A stretch of DNA of 64,000 nucleotides from Melioribacter roseus. Its GTDB lineage: Bacteria > Bacteroidota > Ignavibacteria > Ignavibacteriales > Melioribacteraceae. How positions within the stretch are numbered: the stretch's first letter is position 1; every line of letters starts with the position of its first letter. The position numbers were made by a program, and so were the translations under genes. The notes under the pieces were generated by a model. That model searched no databases. It worked only from the letters and a program-made list of their open reading frames with translations, and was not told where the DNA came from. Shown here in pieces: positions 24,844 through 64,000 of the stretch. The DNA lies in contig DYSW01000004.1 in assembly GCA_020726285.1 (NCBI GenBank), positions 1-64,000 of the forward strand. The letters run 5' to 3'.

Positions 24844-26871
24844 GTGAAAAGAGCATTGTTTTTGATTTTCATCTTAACTGCAACAAATTTTGCTCAATTC
24901 AAGAAAATTGTGTTGTTGGAAGTTGCAACAAATTCAGGTTGCGGAAGTTGTGCGGCTTCTAACGAATTGCTTAATGATTTCTATGCAGATTATTATGGCG
25001 GCTTAATTTCTGTTCGTTATCATCCAAATTTCCCCGATCCAACTGATCCAATGTATCTTGATAATCCAATTGATAATGCTGGTCGTATTGAATTTTATAA
25101 TCTTCTTTACACTCCACAATATTTAATAAATGGAAAAGTGAAAGGTGCACCTACTGATAAAGAACTAATGTGGCAACAGATGAATGAAGAAATAATTTCT
25201 ACTCCATTTTGGATAAACATTTCTGCACAAATTACTTCTGATTCCGTAAAATATTTTGTTCACATTTATTCGTCAGAAAATATTTCATCTGAAAATCTGA
25301 AACTTCATACATCAATTACACAGAGAATGGTAACTTATTCTTCGCCTCCAGGTTCAAATGGTGAGACTAATTTTCCTTCTGTTATGCGGAAAATGTTACC
25401 CAATTTCGAGGGAATTTCGGTAAATCAGATAAATGCTGGCGATTCGCTCACTTTTTACTTTGCTACATCTATTGAAAATAATTGGGATTGGAAGAATCTT
25501 GAAATTATTGCTTGGCTACAAGATGATGAAACAAAAGAAATCTATCAAGCAAATTCATCGCTTCCTGTTTTGTCAATTGAACCTCAACAACCTGATTTTA
25601 GCGTGATTGAAAATGGTACGATTTTAACTCTTAACAAATATAACGTTACAAATTTCAACAATAAGCCAATTTCGTTTTACATAAAAAGCGAAATCTTTGA
25701 AACATCTGAAGATATACAAATTGATTTTAGCGATGAAGACGGAAATCAGATTGATAGTTCAGTTTTTACAATTCAGTCTTTACAAACAATGGAATTTAAT
25801 GTTGGAATTGCTTACGTAAATCCGCAAAGTTTGGCAAATATAGATATTTTTATCAGCAATTTAGAAAATCAACTTCCTTACAGATTTAAGTATTCATTTC
25901 TAACTTTTTCGAAGAACTACGATATTTTATTGCTCGACAATTCAAATTCAAATTCGGTTAAAGATGAAATTGTTCCAGGAATTTATTTGATGTCCTTAAA
26001 ATATGGAATTACAAATTCGTTTGTTCTAAACCATTGGAAAGATATTTTCCTTGAATTTCCTCCGAAATCCGTGTTTTTGTATTCTGGAAATAATCCAAAA
26101 CAATATTCTGAAACTGATATTTCTTTTCTGCTCGATTATTTATCACAAAATAGAAATGTAGTAGTTAGTGGAAATAAATTAACAACACTTCGCTCAACTT
26201 CGTGGGAATCAATTGATTTCTTCGACAATTATCTTGATGTACAATTTGTTGAAAACACAAATCTATCAGAAATTCACGTTATTGATCATCCTGATACTTT
26301 GTTTTTTGTTCAAGATTTTACACTTGAAAATGCAGATGAAATTGAATTTGAAGTAATTCAAAGTAAACACGGAAACAGTTTGCCATTTTTGTATTATTTG
26401 GGCGAAGATACAAGCAAAGTTGCAGGATTATTAAACTCGACAGACACAACAAAACTTGCTTTTGTTGCATTTGACATTGCAAGAATTTCAGAACAAAATA
26501 GACAAAATGAATTTCTACAAACAATTTTTAATTGGTTAGATATTTATGAAATAGTTGATATAAAAAGTGAACCAATTCCTTATGAATTTATTCTTTTTCA
26601 AAATTATCCAAATCCGTTCAATCCAAGTACGGAAATAAAATTCAGTATTGCTAAAGGTTCTCACGTAAAATTAGAACTATTCAACACACTTGGCGAAAAA
26701 GTAGCAACCTTGATAAATAAAGAAATGTCCGCTGGAACTCATAATTATCAATTATCAATTATCAATTATCAATTACCAAGTGGTGTTTATTTTTATAGGT
26801 TGCAAATAGTTAATACCGAAAATTCGGGACAAGCTTTTACAGAAACCAAGAAAATGTTGCTTGTTAAATAA
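24844..26871 (+). CDS. Secreted thioredoxin-like protein with type IX secretion sorting domain
   Basis: A 675-residue exported protein. It has a signal peptide (MKRALFLIFILTATNFAQ), then a thioredoxin-like segment in which VATNSGCGSC places a CxxC at Cys33/Cys36, as in Omp28-like proteins. A long beta-rich middle follows. The C terminus is a Por/type IX sorting domain: FQNYPNPFNPSTEIKFS, then VKLELFNTLGEKVATL and SGVYFYRLQ. The protein should cross the outer membrane by the type IX system. A 7-nt tandem repeat (26743-26777) lies inside the sorting-domain coding sequence. A cysteine pair like this could be redox-active, but the role is unknown. Confidence 0.88.
   Translation: MKRALFLIFILTATNFAQFKKIVLLEVATNSGCGSCAASNELLNDFYADYYGGLISVRYHPNFPDPTDPMYLDNPIDNAGRIEFYNLLYTPQYLINGKVKGAPTDKELMWQQMNEEIISTPFWINISAQITSDSVKYFVHIYSSENISSENLKLHTSITQRMVTYSSPPGSNGETNFPSVMRKMLPNFEGISVNQINAGDSLTFYFATSIENNWDWKNLEIIAWLQDDETKEIYQANSSLPVLSIEPQQPDFSVIENGTILTLNKYNVTNFNNKPISFYIKSEIFETSEDIQIDFSDEDGNQIDSSVFTIQSLQTMEFNVGIAYVNPQSLANIDIFISNLENQLPYRFKYSFLTFSKNYDILLLDNSNSNSVKDEIVPGIYLMSLKYGITNSFVLNHWKDIFLEFPPKSVFLYSGNNPKQYSETDISFLLDYLSQNRNVVVSGNKLTTLRSTSWESIDFFDNYLDVQFVENTNLSEIHVIDHPDTLFFVQDFTLENADEIEFEVIQSKHGNSLPFLYYLGEDTSKVAGLLNSTDTTKLAFVAFDIARISEQNRQNEFLQTIFNWLDIYEIVDIKSEPIPYEFILFQNYPNPFNPSTEIKFSIAKGSHVKLELFNTLGEKVATLINKEMSAGTHNYQLSIINYQLPSGVYFYRLQIVNTENSGQAFTETKKMLLVK
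26743..26777 (+). repeat. Heptanucleotide tandem repeat (AATTATC)
   Basis: Four perfect copies of AATTATC (26743-26770) are followed by one copy with a single change, AATTACC (26771-26777). The array is inside the reading frame of the sorting domain and is read as the peptide repeat NYQLSII-NYQL. Gain or loss of one 7-nt unit would shift the frame. Confidence 0.9.
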
Positions 26872-26970: not shown

Positions 26971-27417
26971 ATGGAAAATCACGAATATTTTTTGAACGAA
27001 GCAATCGAAGAAGCAAAAAAAGGATTATCTGAAGGCGGAATTCCAATTGGTTCTGTAATTGTTCATAATGGAAAAATTATTGGACGTGGTCACAATCGTC
27101 GTGTACAAAAAGGAAGCGTAATTCTACACGGAGAAATGGACGCTTTGGAAAATGCTGGAAGGTTGTCAGCATCAGTTTATCGGGAATGTACAATCTACAC
27201 AACTTTATCACCTTGTCCGATGTGTAGCGGAGCAATTCGGTTATATGGAATTCCAAAAGTTGTAATCGGAGAAAATAAAACTTTTCTTGGCGATGAAAAA
27301 TTACTTAACGAAAGTGGAATAGAAACCATTTTGATGAATAACTCAAATTGTATTTCATTGATGGAAAAATTTATCAGCGAAAAACCAACTTTGTGGAATG
27401 AAGATATAGGGGAATAA
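26971..27417 (+). CDS. Cytosine deaminase-like nucleoside/base deaminase (yeast Fcy1 type)
   Basis: A 148-residue zinc-dependent deaminase. The zinc and catalytic motifs are HGE at 53-55 and PCPMC at 81-85. Beyond these, the sequence follows the small fungal cytosine deaminase along its length: EGGIPIGSVI, GRGHNRRVQKGSVILHGE, ENAGRL, YTTLSPCPMCSGAI, YGIPKVVIGEN, and the C-terminal tail LWNEDIGE. That tail is diagnostic of the Fcy1 type rather than of TadA or guanine deaminase. The likely reaction is cytosine to uracil, which the UPRT encoded at 38.8 kb could turn into UMP. The gene is 30 bp upstream of the ATP-citrate lyase genes on the same strand. Substrate is inferred. Confidence 0.85.
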   Translation: MENHEYFLNEAIEEAKKGLSEGGIPIGSVIVHNGKIIGRGHNRRVQKGSVILHGEMDALENAGRLSASVYRECTIYTTLSPCPMCSGAIRLYGIPKVVIGENKTFLGDEKLLNESGIETILMNNSNCISLMEKFISEKPTLWNEDIGE

Positions 27418-27447
27418 TTTTATTAATTGAACCTACTCGAGGTTTTT

Positions 27448-28695
27448 ATGCAAGTTACTGGTATGCGATATGGGAAACAAATGCTTGATTTAGCAGATTT
27501 CCCAACTCCAAAAGTTCTTTTTGAGAATGCAACTTTGGAAGAACTAGATAAAATGATGAAAGAACAAGGAAAATGCGTTATTAAACCAATTTTTTATGGT
27601 GGCGTAGGCAAAAAGGGAAAAGCTGGTTTGGTTCAAATAGCAAACTCAGCAACTGACGCTTTTTCTGCAAAAAGGAAATTATATTTCGCTCAACATTTTT
27701 TTCATAACCGATTAATCCAAGCAAATGGAGTTACTTTCGAGGAATTTATTCCATCATCCTACGAAATATATTTTAATCTTTCAGTTTCAACTTTTTCGAG
27801 AAAAGTAAATTTCACACTAACACATCACGGTGGAATTGATATTGAAGAACTCGGACCAGATAAACTTTACGAAGGTACTTTTGATTCAATAACCGGTTTG
27901 AAAACTTATCACATAGTTGATGCTCTTTCGCACTTAAATGCTCCATCGGAAATTATTTCTCCATTAGCGCAACAATTGCCCAAATTGTGGAATCTTTACA
28001 ACGATTTCGGATTTACTATGATTGAAATTAATCCAATTCGAATGAAAATGATAAACGGAAGATTAGTTCCAATTGCTTGCGATTTCAAAGCTCAATTTGA
28101 TAGAGACAACAAACAATATAAAAGATTAAATCTTCCAGAAGAGATATTTGCAACTGAGCTATCTCAATTTGAAGAAGAAATTAATCAACTTCGCACGCAT
28201 CAAGGACAAAGTGATGTTGTTGTTGTAAATCCATTTGGAACAGTAACTCCATTTATGTTTGGTGGCGGAGCAAATAGTGCAGCAACAGAAATATTAAGCG
28301 AAAAAGCTACAATTTCCAGCGATTTCGGAGGAAATCCACCTTACGAAAAAATGTACGAAATTTCCAAAATTGTATTCAAATATTGGTTGAAGCAAACAAA
28401 CGTTCTTCTTATTATTGGTGGAAAAGCAAATAACACAGATATTTATGTAACATTCAAAGGAATGTTTGACGCTTTGCGTGATATTATTTCGCAAAGTGGA
28501 AAGCAAGATTTTTATGTAGTTGTGGGAAGAGGTGGACCAAATTTGATTAAAGGCATGAGTTATGCACGCGATATTTTAGATAATTTTTCTATTCCTTATA
28601 AATTCTATGGTTACGATAGTTCAATGGTTGAAGTTGTTCAATATGCATCCGAACTTGACGATTGGTTCATTTCACAAAAAGGTGAGTTAAAGTAG
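27448..28695 (+). CDS. aclB: ATP-citrate lyase, small (ATP-grasp) subunit
   Basis: With the large subunit this makes acetyl-CoA and oxaloacetate from citrate, CoA and ATP, a key step of the reductive TCA cycle. The 415-residue protein matches the N-terminal half of ATP-citrate lyase: an ATP-grasp domain with CVIKPIFYGGVGKKGKAGL and EINPIRMKM, then the CoA-ligase/citrate-binding part with FMFGGGANSAATEIL, IIGGKANNTDIYVTFKG and VVGRGGPNLIKGM. The open frame extends to a TTG at 27427, but GAGG at 27439-27442 sits 5 bases before the ATG at 27448, which I take as the start. The large subunit follows after 8 bp. It is a divergent member of the family. Confidence 0.87.
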   Translation: MQVTGMRYGKQMLDLADFPTPKVLFENATLEELDKMMKEQGKCVIKPIFYGGVGKKGKAGLVQIANSATDAFSAKRKLYFAQHFFHNRLIQANGVTFEEFIPSSYEIYFNLSVSTFSRKVNFTLTHHGGIDIEELGPDKLYEGTFDSITGLKTYHIVDALSHLNAPSEIISPLAQQLPKLWNLYNDFGFTMIEINPIRMKMINGRLVPIACDFKAQFDRDNKQYKRLNLPEEIFATELSQFEEEINQLRTHQGQSDVVVVNPFGTVTPFMFGGGANSAATEILSEKATISSDFGGNPPYEKMYEISKIVFKYWLKQTNVLLIIGGKANNTDIYVTFKGMFDALRDIISQSGKQDFYVVVGRGGPNLIKGMSYARDILDNFSIPYKFYGYDSSMVEVVQYASELDDWFISQKGELK

Positions 28696-28703
28696 GAGAA
28701 AAT

Positions 28704-31421
28704 ATGTCAAAATTTAATAAACCATTCAATTACTTTGTTGGAATTAATTCATTAGAAGAAATTGCAACTCGTGAATCAAAAGTTTTAGTTATGAATATTT
28801 TGGGGAATGAAAGCAAAAATGTTACTCCAATTTCTCATATTTTTAGCGGTGGAAACATCGTTGCTGGAGTGCAATATGGTCGTCCTGGAAAAATTAAAAC
28901 AGATTTAGGTGAAATTCCAGTTTATAGTAGAGTAGCAGAAGCATCGAAGCAACATTTTTTTGATACAGGCGTAATTTATCTTCCGCCCGAAGCAGTTTTT
29001 CACGCAGTAACAGAATTATGTCATTACAATGCAATAAATCTTAAAAAAATTGTAATTGTTACTGAAAAACTTAGCGTAAAAGATCAAAGATTAATTCGCG
29101 CTGTTGCACAAGCAAATCAAATTGATGTTTTTGGTGCTAACTGTTTGGGAGTTGCAGATTCTTGGAATCGAGTTAGAATTGGTGGAGCTTTAGGAGGCGA
29201 TAAACCTGACGAAACACTAATTAAAGGTTCAATTGCAATTCATAGTAATTCTGGAAATTTTAGTACAACAATTGCAGAATATCTTAAAACTACAGGTTTT
29301 GGAACTTCGACAATTATCAGCTCTGGAAAAGATGTTATTATTCAATTTGCTGTTCCAGAATTCCTTTATGCAGCACAAAATGATGTTCGGACAAAAGCGG
29401 TTGTTTTATATATTGAACCTGGTGGCTATTACGAAAAGCAAGCATTAGATTTAATTCAAACTGGTAAATTAAAATTTGATAAACCAATAATTGCATGTAT
29501 TACTGGTAGATGGAAATCGAATTTAACACGAGCTTGCGGACACGCTGGAGCTTTGGCTGGTTCGGGTGATGATGCAATTACAAAAGAAAAATGGTTTGAT
29601 GATTATTTTGAAACAAAACCATTTTCACCAGAAAATCCAGAAGATGTTTCTACAAAGGGAATTAGAGTTGTTTCAATTCAACATATTCCACAAGCAGTAA
29701 AAGCAGTTTTAGCAAAATGTGATAAAAATACGGATTTTGAACCAATAGGAAATCTTGGTCTAAAACCTTGGTTTGGAAACGATTTCGAAAAAAATCTTCC
29801 GCTAAAATTAAGAATTCCAACAACACAAGCAATTTTTCCTTACAACGATGAAATTACAAAAGTTAACAAAGAACTCGGAACTACTTTCATCAAGCAGAAT
29901 ATGAGAAATAAATCTGGAGCTTCAAAAATTAATGATGATACACAAGTCGCCGAATTGCACCGCAAACCGATTGTGGATTTGATTGAAAAATCTTATGAAA
30001 TAAATATTGTTTTCACACTTTTCAAGATTTTTCCTCAAAAAGAGAAGGAAAAGTTTGTTAGCTTTATTCTCAATTATTTTGGAAAACCATCCAATTTTGA
30101 ATTTGAAATTATCAAAAAAGCTTATGAAAATAAAGCAACTCCAAATCAATCGTTAATTTCAGCTTTACCAATTTCTGGGAATTTATCTCAAAATTCTAAA
30201 ATCAAACAGAATGTTTCTGATTTGATTGAATTTATTGGCGAATTGGGAATCAGAAACGTAAATCAAGAAATTGATTTTGAAAAAGCAAAATCAGCAGCAA
30301 AAGAAAAATTTATTCAACTAACTTCGGACGAAAATCCACTTACTACTTTTCTTTTCAAAATGCAAAAATCGTGTAATTTCAAATCGACATTTTGCAGCTT
30401 GTTAGTAAATCTTGCAGAAGAAAACCAAAATTTCATGAATTTTGATTTTTTAACTGCGTCAATAATTGTTGATTTAGCTTTAGAATCACTCATTTTGAAG
30501 AGAATTTCACGTAAAAATGTAATTGATTCTATAGATTATTTCTCCTTGATTGCAAAAACCGTTTTCCTTTCGACTATAAATTATCAATCTAATAAAAAGA
30601 TAAATGAAATCCTTCAGCAAACTGACTTGGACTTGCTCACAACTTCGTTTACAAAAGTAGCTTATTATTCACTTTTTGATGAAGAGCCAACTTCGGAATC
30701 GCTTATTGAATTTTCCGCACTTTTGGCATTAACTTTAACAAATGGCGCAGGTACAATTAGTGCAAAAGGTGCAAAAGAAAGTGTGAGTGCAAGAAACAAT
30801 TTAGCAACAATTTATGCTGGATATTTGTCGAACACAGGGTTGGCTCATGGTGGAAGCGGTTATGAGGCAATTGAATATTTGTTAAAATCTTTTGAAGGAA
30901 CGGAAATCGAGAACCCAGAACTGAACGAAAATGAATTCTCAACTCTTGAAATTGCGAAAAAATCAGCGAAGAAATTCCTTAGTTACAAAAATGCTGTAAA
31001 ATTCAGTGGCGAAATGAGTTATGAAAGAATTCCATGCATAAATCATCCGGTTTTTAAGGGGAAAAAAGTAAATATTGACCCGCGAGAAGATTACATTCGA
31101 AAATATTTGGAAGCAAGAAATATCAAAAATGTGTTTTGGAATTTTTACCACAATTTGGTTGAACAACTTTTCAATATTGGTGCAACTAAAAATACTTATT
31201 GTGTGAATATTGACGCTGTAATTGCCGTAATTTCCCTCAAATTGATGTGGAAATCTTTCTCAAACGGGAAATTAACTACTGAAAATTTGCAAGATATTGG
31301 CTTTTTGATTTTCCTTTTCGGAAGAACAGTTGGAGTTTCAGCCGAAATTATTGACCATATTGAACGTGGAACAGATATGGATTGCCGAACTCCGCAAGAA
31401 GAATTGCAATTTCTTTCGTAA
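28704..31421 (+). CDS. aclA: ATP-citrate lyase, large subunit with a long internal insertion
   Basis: A 905-residue protein that combines a succinyl-CoA-synthetase-alpha-like part and a citrate-synthase-like (citryl-CoA lyase) part. The phosphohistidine is His280 in CGHAGALAGSGDD. The lyase part has GLAHGGSGYEAIEYLLKSF, His781 in INHPVF (replacing the usual GHRV), Asp837 in CVNIDAVIAV, and the closing LFGRTVGVSAEIIDH. Known alpha subunits are about 610 residues, with some 140 residues between the two catalytic histidines; here there are 501. The extra ~360 residues (roughly 400-660) have no motif that I recognise. AGGAG precedes the ATG. Catalytic residues seem kept, so activity is likely, but the branch is divergent. 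Confidence 0.85.
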   Translation: MSKFNKPFNYFVGINSLEEIATRESKVLVMNILGNESKNVTPISHIFSGGNIVAGVQYGRPGKIKTDLGEIPVYSRVAEASKQHFFDTGVIYLPPEAVFHAVTELCHYNAINLKKIVIVTEKLSVKDQRLIRAVAQANQIDVFGANCLGVADSWNRVRIGGALGGDKPDETLIKGSIAIHSNSGNFSTTIAEYLKTTGFGTSTIISSGKDVIIQFAVPEFLYAAQNDVRTKAVVLYIEPGGYYEKQALDLIQTGKLKFDKPIIACITGRWKSNLTRACGHAGALAGSGDDAITKEKWFDDYFETKPFSPENPEDVSTKGIRVVSIQHIPQAVKAVLAKCDKNTDFEPIGNLGLKPWFGNDFEKNLPLKLRIPTTQAIFPYNDEITKVNKELGTTFIKQNMRNKSGASKINDDTQVAELHRKPIVDLIEKSYEINIVFTLFKIFPQKEKEKFVSFILNYFGKPSNFEFEIIKKAYENKATPNQSLISALPISGNLSQNSKIKQNVSDLIEFIGELGIRNVNQEIDFEKAKSAAKEKFIQLTSDENPLTTFLFKMQKSCNFKSTFCSLLVNLAEENQNFMNFDFLTASIIVDLALESLILKRISRKNVIDSIDYFSLIAKTVFLSTINYQSNKKINEILQQTDLDLLTTSFTKVAYYSLFDEEPTSESLIEFSALLALTLTNGAGTISAKGAKESVSARNNLATIYAGYLSNTGLAHGGSGYEAIEYLLKSFEGTEIENPELNENEFSTLEIAKKSAKKFLSYKNAVKFSGEMSYERIPCINHPVFKGKKVNIDPREDYIRKYLEARNIKNVFWNFYHNLVEQLFNIGATKNTYCVNIDAVIAVISLKLMWKSFSNGKLTTENLQDIGFLIFLFGRTVGVSAEIIDHIERGTDMDCRTPQEELQFLS

Positions 31422-62380: not shown

Positions 62381-62606
62381 GCTGAAACTCATTTATCTTT
62401 AAAAAATAATTCAATATTTGTCTTTCGAAATTTTCAATACGTAAATCTGGAACCCAAAATTAGTAGTCCTTCAATCAGTTGATTCTAAATGAAATTAATT
62501 CTAAATCTTTTTTGTTGTTTTATATATTGGTATATTTACGTCCGAATTTATTTTCTTATTCAAAATTAAAGACTATTAATGCAATTTATAATAAATGGGA
62601 GAATCC
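62381..62606. other. Spacer before nifJ
   Basis: This stretch between the export-operon terminator and nifJ has no convincing gene. A weak promoter-like pair, TTTG (62511-62514) and TATATTTA (62531-62538), lies about 70 bp before the start. GGGAG at 62597-62601 is the ribosome-binding site. Confidence 0.4.
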
Positions 62607-64000
62607 ATGGAAATTAAACGTAACAAAATCACCATTGATGGAAACGAAGCGGCTGCTAAAGTTGCCTATAAATTAAGTGAAGTGATTGCAATTTATCCAA
62701 TCACACCTTCATCACCAATGGGCGAATTATCAGATGCTTGGGCATCAGAATCTGGTGAAAATGTTTGGGGAACTATTCCTTCAGTAACCGAAATGCAAAG
62801 TGAAGGCGGTGCCGTTGGTGCTGTTCACGGTGCTTTACAAGCTGGCTCACTAACTACAACTTTTACAGCCTCACAAGGTTTATTATTAATGATCCCAAAT
62901 ATGTATAAAATTGCTGGCGAACTAACTCCAACTGTTTTTCACGTTACAGCTCGTTCACTTGCAGCACAAGCTTTATCAATTTTTGGTGATCATAGTGATG
63001 TTATGCAAGTTCGACAAACTGGTTTTGCGATGATTGCTTCAAATTCAGTACAAGAAGTTCATGATACAGCTGCAATCGCACACAAAGCAACTTTGGAATC
63101 AAGAATTCCATTTATCCATTTTTTTGATGGTTTTAGAACTTCACATGAAGTTCTAAAAATTGAAGAATTGAATGATTCTGACTTAAAAGCAATGGTTGAT
63201 CCAAATACAATTTATGATTTCCGTAAAAGAGCAATGAATCCAAATAACCCAGTTTTACGTGGAACTGCACAAAATCCTGATGTTTTTTTCCAAGGACGTG
63301 AAACTGTAAATAAATTTTATGATGCAACTCCTGAAATTGTTCAAAACGCAATGGACAAATTTTATGAGTTAACAGGAAGAAGATATAATTTATTTGACTA
63401 TTATGGCGATAAAGAAGCTAAAAAAGTTGTAATAATTATGGGCTCTGGTGCAGAAACCGCTGAAGAAACAGTTGATTATTTATTGAAAAATGAAGAAAAA
63501 GTTGGAATTCTTAAAGTTAGATTATTTAGACCATTTTCAACAAAACATTTATTATCCACACTACCAAAAACTGTAGAAAAAATTGCAGTTTTAGATAGAA
63601 CCAAAGAACCTGGTTCTATTGGCGAACCTTTGTATCTTGATATTGTTACTGCAATTAGCGAAGCAATGTCATCTGAAGAAAAACCATTTGAAAAAATGCC
63701 ATTGATTATTGGTGGTAGGTACGGACTTTCTTCAAAAGAATTTACACCATCGATGGTAAAAGCCGTTTTTGATAATCTTAAAGAAAGTAAACCAAAAAAT
63801 CATTTTACAATTGGAATTAATGATGACGTTACCTTCACAAGTCTAAATTTTGATAAATCCTTCATTATTGAAGATACACAAGCAACAAAGTGTATGTTTT
63901 ACGGACTTGGAGCCGACGGAACAGTTGGAGCCAATAAAAACTCAATCAAAATTATTGGTGAAGAAACTGAAAACTTTGCTCAAGGTTATTTTGTTTATGA
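62607..64000 (+). CDS. nifJ: Pyruvate:ferredoxin (flavodoxin) oxidoreductase, N-terminal part
   Basis: The open frame runs off the right edge; about 465 residues are visible. NifJ converts pyruvate and CoA to acetyl-CoA and CO2 with ferredoxin, and can run in reverse to fix CO2. Landmarks of the N-terminal domains are DGNEAAAKVAYKLSEVIA, YPITPSSPMGELSDAW and SEGGAVGAVHGALQAGSLTT, then the transketolase-like part with FDGFRTSHEV, and finally DRTKEPGSIGEPLYLD. GGGAG at 62597-62601 lies five bases before ATG 62607, favouring it over ATG 62595. Together with ATP-citrate lyase at 27-31 kb it supports reductive TCA capability. Confidence 0.95.
   Translation, partial: MEIKRNKITIDGNEAAAKVAYKLSEVIAIYPITPSSPMGELSDAWASESGENVWGTIPSVTEMQSEGGAVGAVHGALQAGSLTTTFTASQGLLLMIPNMYKIAGELTPTVFHVTARSLAAQALSIFGDHSDVMQVRQTGFAMIASNSVQEVHDTAAIAHKATLESRIPFIHFFDGFRTSHEVLKIEELNDSDLKAMVDPNTIYDFRKRAMNPNNPVLRGTAQNPDVFFQGRETVNKFYDATPEIVQNAMDKFYELTGRRYNLFDYYGDKEAKKVVIIMGSGAETAEETVDYLLKNEEKVGILKVRLFRPFSTKHLLSTLPKTVEKIAVLDRTKEPGSIGEPLYLDIVTAISEAMSSEEKPFEKMPLIIGGRYGLSSKEFTPSMVKAVFDNLKESKPKNHFTIGINDDVTFTSLNFDKSFIIEDTQATKCMFYGLGADGTVGANKNSIKIIGEETENFAQGYFVY

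Follow-up and report, generated by a model that had tools for sequence, protein, structure and literature searches.

Background

Type II ATP-citrate lyase (ACL), a class named by Hugler and Sievert in 2011 (as cited in PMC3522073, PMC6315080 and PMC6783814), has been published from tubeworm symbionts, Thioflavicoccus and Magnetococcales (PMC3522073, PMC6315080, PMC6783814), and in Thioflavicoccus and the tubeworm symbionts its aclAB genes lie within rTCA clusters (PMC6315080). Type I ACL, as in Chlorobium and human ACLY, has a synthetase module with a GHAGA phosphohistidine, a C-terminal lyase with a GHRV-like histidine and an aspartate, and, in AclB, ATP-grasp and citrate-binding domains. The core of ACLY is a D2 homotetramer of CSH (lyase) domains drawn from four chains (PMC10115795). 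It is debated whether the CSH domain performs catalysis or acts as an allosteric module, the second view being favoured by PMC10115795. Citryl-CoA synthetase (6HXQ) and citryl-CoA lyase (6HXP) are separate enzymes, with the lyase domain present only once.

The AclA described here shares these type I features, as does its AclB, but it is 905 residues long and holds two lyase folds, whereas type I AclA has 583–610 residues and one lyase domain. Where the type I lyase has the ADHGP histidine and FGGA, NGxG (Asn680) and HGG are found in all 16 proteins of the present family. Unlike 6HXQ and 6HXP, synthetase and lyase parts are fused in one chain, with the lyase fold in two copies, which we call copy N and copy C.

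The aclBA locus and its assignment to type II

The window (the whole stretch of DNA that was analysed, 64,000 nucleotides) carries aclB and aclA as a two-gene unit on one strand, the genes separated by 8 nt:

27448..28695, + strand: aclB, ATP-grasp and citrate-binding subunit (Pfam Citrate_bind E 1.9e-19, ATP-grasp_2 E 2.6e-15; aligned with type I and type II AclB)
28704..31421, + strand: aclA, 905-residue large subunit assigned to type II ATP-citrate lyase (open frame)
28704..29603, + strand: citryl-CoA synthetase (SucD-like) module of AclA, residues 1–300 (PDB 6HXQ, E 1.3e-31)
29541..29543, + strand: phosphohistidine His280 in CGHAGA (invariant in 16 homologues)
29604..29855, + strand: linker, residues 301–384 (alignment, regional conservation)

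The frame listing starts aclB at a TTG at 27427; we give it from the ATG at 27448, the position at which homologues start in the alignment. AclA matched the Pfam families CoA_binding, Succ_CoA_lig and, weakly, Citrate_synt, and passed no cut-off of the NCBIfam models. Its closest relative, from Melioribacter roseus of the same genus group, is 93% identical, and the nearest solved relative of residues 24–293 is citryl-CoA synthetase 6HXQ (E 1.3e-31).

The initial annotation saw in AclA a divergent branch of the enzyme, and this proved correct. In a tree of the synthetase module that took in the 16 proteins, type I AclA and SucD and did not include the published type II sequences, the 16 proteins stood apart from both type I and SucD with a branch support of 100/100. 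The type II ACL primers of PMC3522073 encode the peptides VAKEEWF and NGFEAIA, whose counterparts in this AclA are TKEKWF (293–298) and SGYEAIE (718–724). Close variants of both peptides were present in all 16 proteins, 1.30–1.32 kb apart in a stretch that spans copy N, and in none of eight type I AclA. With published type II ACL the pair thus has in common both primer-peptide motifs and the two-gene aclB–aclA arrangement; within this comparison of primer peptides and gene arrangement, no difference is known. On the strength of the separate clade and the primer-peptide match, we class aclBA by sequence as type II ATP-citrate lyase, a family already published but little studied.

The 905-residue AclA-like frame beside AclB had been read at first as an ACL large subunit with 501 residues between His280 and His781, and both points stand, with a spacing of 501–506 in all 16 aligned relatives. 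Since these homologues keep the spacing and the length, a frameshift or misassembly as the source of the extra length was rejected. The proposed insertion of ~360 residues, however, came from taking the 140 residues between human His760 and His900 as a yardstick, which compares non-equivalent histidines. In seven of eight type I AclA from the same phylum, the phosphohistidine lies 142–144 residues from the ADHGP histidine (the motif pattern gave no match in the eighth, which was left out of this range), and the distance to the GHRV histidine in type I AclA of the phylum is 218–220 residues, so that the human spacing refers to the ADHGP histidine and not to GHRV. When copy C was aligned with citryl-CoA lyase 6HXP, the counterpart of human His900 was Asn680. 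Compared like for like, the excess is ~257 (400 minus 143) or ~281 (501 minus 220) residues, of which ~255 precede the lyase domain and ~25 lengthen the stretch from HGG to HPVF, which counts 66 residues here and 41 in type I.

A second lyase-fold domain in AclA

The extra segment is a tandem-duplicated, degenerate domain of the citrate-synthase (citryl-CoA-lyase) fold, placed before the intact one:

29856..30623, + strand: copy N, degenerate citryl-CoA-lyase-fold domain, residues 385–640 (profile–profile E 1.9e-10 to copy C, controls, fold match to 6HXK)
29895..29960, + strand: hairpin conserved within copy N, residues 398–419, QNMxxKSGASxxxxxTQVxELH (Q398, S404, G405, S407, Q414 and H419 invariant)
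30444..30446, + strand: Asp581 in copy N, matching catalytic Asp837 of copy C (acidic, Asp or Glu, throughout the homologues)
30624..31418, + strand: copy C, intact citryl-CoA-lyase domain, residues 641–905 (Pfam Citrate_synt E 4.4e-8; 53/265 columns invariant)
30741..30743, + strand: Asn680, where human ACLY has His900 and type I reads ADHGP (alignment with 6HXP; invariant)
30846..30848, + strand: His715 in HGG, FGGA in type I (motif alignment)
31044..31046, + strand: His781 in NHPVF, counterpart of the type I GHRV histidine (motif alignment)
31212..31214, + strand: Asp837 in NIDAV, the catalytic Asp, human Asp1026 (invariant)

The segment had been described as an insertion without recognisable motif. 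This holds in so far as a Pfam search found no convincing family, but profile and fold comparison both identified a second lyase-fold domain of ~255 residues, so that it is no longer an insertion of unknown nature. Using profiles built on a 16-protein alignment from Ignavibacteria and Proteobacteria, residues 385–645 matched residues 641–905 with an E-value of 1.9e-10, a probability of 97% and a score of 75.4 over ~204 columns, a result reproduced on repeat. In control comparisons, the best of 40 column shuffles scored 18.5, the reversed profile 18.6 and the synthetase module 11.9. The first hhalign comparison, with Ignavibacteria sequences only, was weak (P 0.0017) and became strong after the proteobacterial homologues were added. 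Searched against PDB sequences, the copy N profile retrieved nothing up to E 10, which makes the relationship invisible to sequence search alone, and against the type I lyase it reached only P 0.035. The copy C profile matched a single PDB sequence, citryl-CoA lyase 6HXP (E 0.012), in which the motifs HGG and GHRYYK...DPR correspond to HGG and HPVFK...DPR.

An AF2 model of copy N alone had a mean pLDDT of 61.8, mostly 60–87 in the core helices, and the top 16 of its PDB matches were taken up by lyase modules of ACLY and by synthases of citrate or methylcitrate. The best of these was 6HXK, the citryl-CoA lyase core of human ACLY (probability 1.00, 257–260 columns, TM 0.48, Foldseek E 0.03). The full-length AF2 model, made with five sequences, was poor (mean pLDDT 51.0), and its Foldseek matches were discarded. 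The profile and fold lines of evidence are independent, because one draws only on the other half of the protein and the other only on solved folds. We found no earlier description of a duplication with one dead copy in the open-access literature, a body that did not extend to the defining 2011 review.

State and conservation of the two copies

Copy C keeps Asn680, His715, His781, Asp837, Arg874, Glu881, Asp884 and His885 invariant across the 16 proteins. The initial annotation was right that Asp837 is kept and that NHPVF occupies the place of GHRV; this replacement is no lesion, HPVF being invariant in 16/16 proteins, as is His715 of HGG, a residue missing from type I. Copy N is without the catalytic His/His/Asp set: in this protein Ser stands at the position of His715 and His781 has no counterpart, while the position of Asp837 is taken by Asp (in this protein and all Proteobacteria) or Glu (in most Ignavibacteria).

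The two copies are also conserved to different degrees. Between phyla, copy N outside the hairpin is 17% identical and copy C 45%; invariant columns number 4/215 in copy N outside the hairpin and 53/265 in copy C. The hairpin, residues 398–419, is confined to copy N. Between the two closest genomes, the synthetase module had a dN/dS of 0.05, against 0.095 in copy C and 0.12 in copy N, from which it follows that copy N is maintained by purifying selection. A pseudogene was rejected, with dN/dS at 0.05–0.17 by region. Copies N and C share one frame in every case found, and the presence of copy N in both phyla dates the duplication to before their split or before a transfer between them.

Proposed working and alternative explanations

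Taken together, the account that we hold to be likely is that of a type II ACL in which copy C cleaves and a dead copy N partners it in an alpha2beta2 enzyme. AclB and the first third of AclA would phosphorylate His280 and form citryl-CoA as type I does, and copy C, through His715, His781 and Asp837, would split citryl-CoA into acetyl-CoA and oxaloacetate. That copy C is the active copy and citrate cleavage the reaction is what the residues retained would predict. Copy N, its catalytic histidines lost, would serve as a structural and possibly ligand-binding partner that packs on copy C and stands in for every second lyase domain. With two lyase folds in each alpha chain, two chains should suffice for a tetrameric core, and we infer a half-size assembly in which two alpha chains would form a pseudo-tetrameric core of two live and two dead folds, giving alpha2beta2 and not alpha4beta4. 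The different mode of assembly that the initial annotation had raised is plausible on this view. The more general proposition, that type II ACL as such is a half-size alpha2beta2 enzyme with a lyase core formed by an obligate live/dead pseudo-heterodimer born of an ancient tandem duplication, with a scaffold or allosteric role split from catalysis, is plausible but put forward tentatively.

Copy N might instead be an allosteric sensor, adjusting the synthetase modules through non-reactive binding of CoA, citrate or acetyl-CoA. PMC10115795 argues for such a role of the CSH domain in human ACLY, and a sensor of this kind would fit the invariance of Q398, SGAS, Q414, H419, P480-N481 and R600 while the rest of copy N drifts, as well as the acidic residue kept at its catalytic Asp position. 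We nevertheless consider it unlikely: no ligand site was identified in copy N, the invariant residues may equally serve the fold or the N–C interface, and the between-phyla identity of the copy N core is low for a conserved binding site. The added regulation that had been suggested for the extra segment at the outset likewise finds no direct support among the present findings.

A further question is whether an enzyme built as described acts on citrate. Type II AclB reads GGKxNNTD where type I reads GGAIANFTD, with Asn for Phe in all type II AclB aligned, and human Phe347, the Phe of ANFTD, is described as important for ACLY catalysis (PMC10115795). This exchange, together with Asn680 in place of the His of type I ACL and citryl-CoA lyase, leaves the activity and exact substrate uncertain. 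Gene context was read in both phyla. The Microvirga pair adjoins a tripartite tricarboxylate transporter and two-component genes, that of Polymorphobacter a 2-hydroxycarboxylate carrier and a two-component pair, and those of Caballeronia and Paraburkholderia an MFS carrier and DctA (dicarboxylate transport). In Gemmobacter the neighbours are tricarballylate and tripartite tricarboxylate genes, tcuAB and a 4-oxalomesaconate tautomerase. No citrate or organic-acid transport genes were found near the Aminobacter locus, and the Ignavibacteria loci that were read had no common neighbourhood and no citrate genes nearby. The proteobacterial context suggests citrate use in heterotrophs. Another tricarboxylate or hydroxy-acid, such as a relative of methylcitrate or tricarballylate, would accord with the two Asn exchanges and with the Gemmobacter neighbours, but we judge it improbable, given that AclB keeps ANxTD and RGGPN, that type II aclAB occur in the rTCA clusters of Thioflavicoccus and tubeworm symbionts (PMC6315080), and that the neighbouring genes are mostly for general citrate or tricarboxylate uptake.

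The idea that the extra segment is an unrelated helical domain between synthetase and lyase, likened to a lyase through helix composition, could appeal to the missing Pfam match, to the capacity of all-helical segments to match spuriously and to the modest confidence of the copy N model, yet it is highly improbable in view of shuffled and reversed controls of at most 18.6 against 75.4, a copy N/copy C alignment that is collinear end to end, and top fold matches of the isolated segment that are all lyases or citrate synthases.

A live and a dead lyase copy in one chain remain the preferred reading, and their occurrence in 16/16 relatives suggests that half of the enzyme core takes no part in catalysis and acts as a scaffold or regulator. 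As one copy lacks the histidines and the other has them, the question of catalyst versus regulator can be tested here by mutating the copies separately.

Distribution and neighbouring genes

The distribution survey covered Bacteroidota genomes and plasmids. Of 197 genomes from the class Ignavibacteria, 6 had full-length AclA relatives, and among 395 genomes drawn from across the phylum such relatives came from Ignavibacteria only. Strong AclB matches (E < 1e-50) in other families of the phylum belonged to type I wherever the adjoining aclA was read, whereas Ignavibacteria type II AclB copies scored ~1e-18 in the same search; none of the genomes listed had both types of AclB. The match in Bacteroidetes HGW-Bacteroidetes-3 (L007) was rejected as proof of another phylum. 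At the end of that contig (L007:5-613), the encoded protein repeats the AclA of L005, from Ignavibacteriae, without a single difference before it is cut short, which makes a chimera or contamination likely. Among the viral contigs searched there was no AclA relative, and the phage search gave SucD-like matches only.

A tblastn search of plasmids retrieved 19 records with a coverage of at least 80% and an identity of 38–45%, from Microvirga, Caballeronia, Paraburkholderia, Sinorhizobium, Gemmobacter, Aminobacter and Polymorphobacter. Plasmid type II aclBA in rhizobia, Paraburkholderia, Gemmobacter and Polymorphobacter, which often adjoins genes for organic-acid transporters and two-component systems, is probably an overlooked citrate-use module of heterotrophs. 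The copies on proteobacterial megaplasmids (L044, L045, L049, L051, L095 and L097) are annotated as 'CoA-binding protein' or 'hypothetical protein', and with such annotation surveys that use type I markers will miss the family. On a Paraburkholderia plasmid, 174 bases (L097:16940-17113) are labelled as CTX-M-122 beta-lactamase at 100% identity in PLSDB; the stretch is too short for the gene and is taken to be a fragment or a false call.

As to rTCA potential in the present genome, a 2-oxoacid:acceptor oxidoreductase model scored above its cut-off and the sdhA/frdA model matched only below it; an ordinary citrate synthase is also there. Within the window, about 31 kb from aclBA, positions 62598-63596, part of a 1201-codon frame, match the 2-oxoacid:acceptor oxidoreductase model below cut-off, and this frame probably encodes a pyruvate:ferredoxin oxidoreductase. 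Directly upstream of aclB and on the same strand lies a cytidine/adenosine-deaminase-like gene of the TadA type (26971-27417); none of the other Ignavibacteria loci that were read had such a gene next to aclB. The gene at 24844-26871 encodes a secreted-looking protein with a C-terminal FQNYPNPFNPST...SGVYFYRL sorting domain, of a kind linked to type IX secretion.
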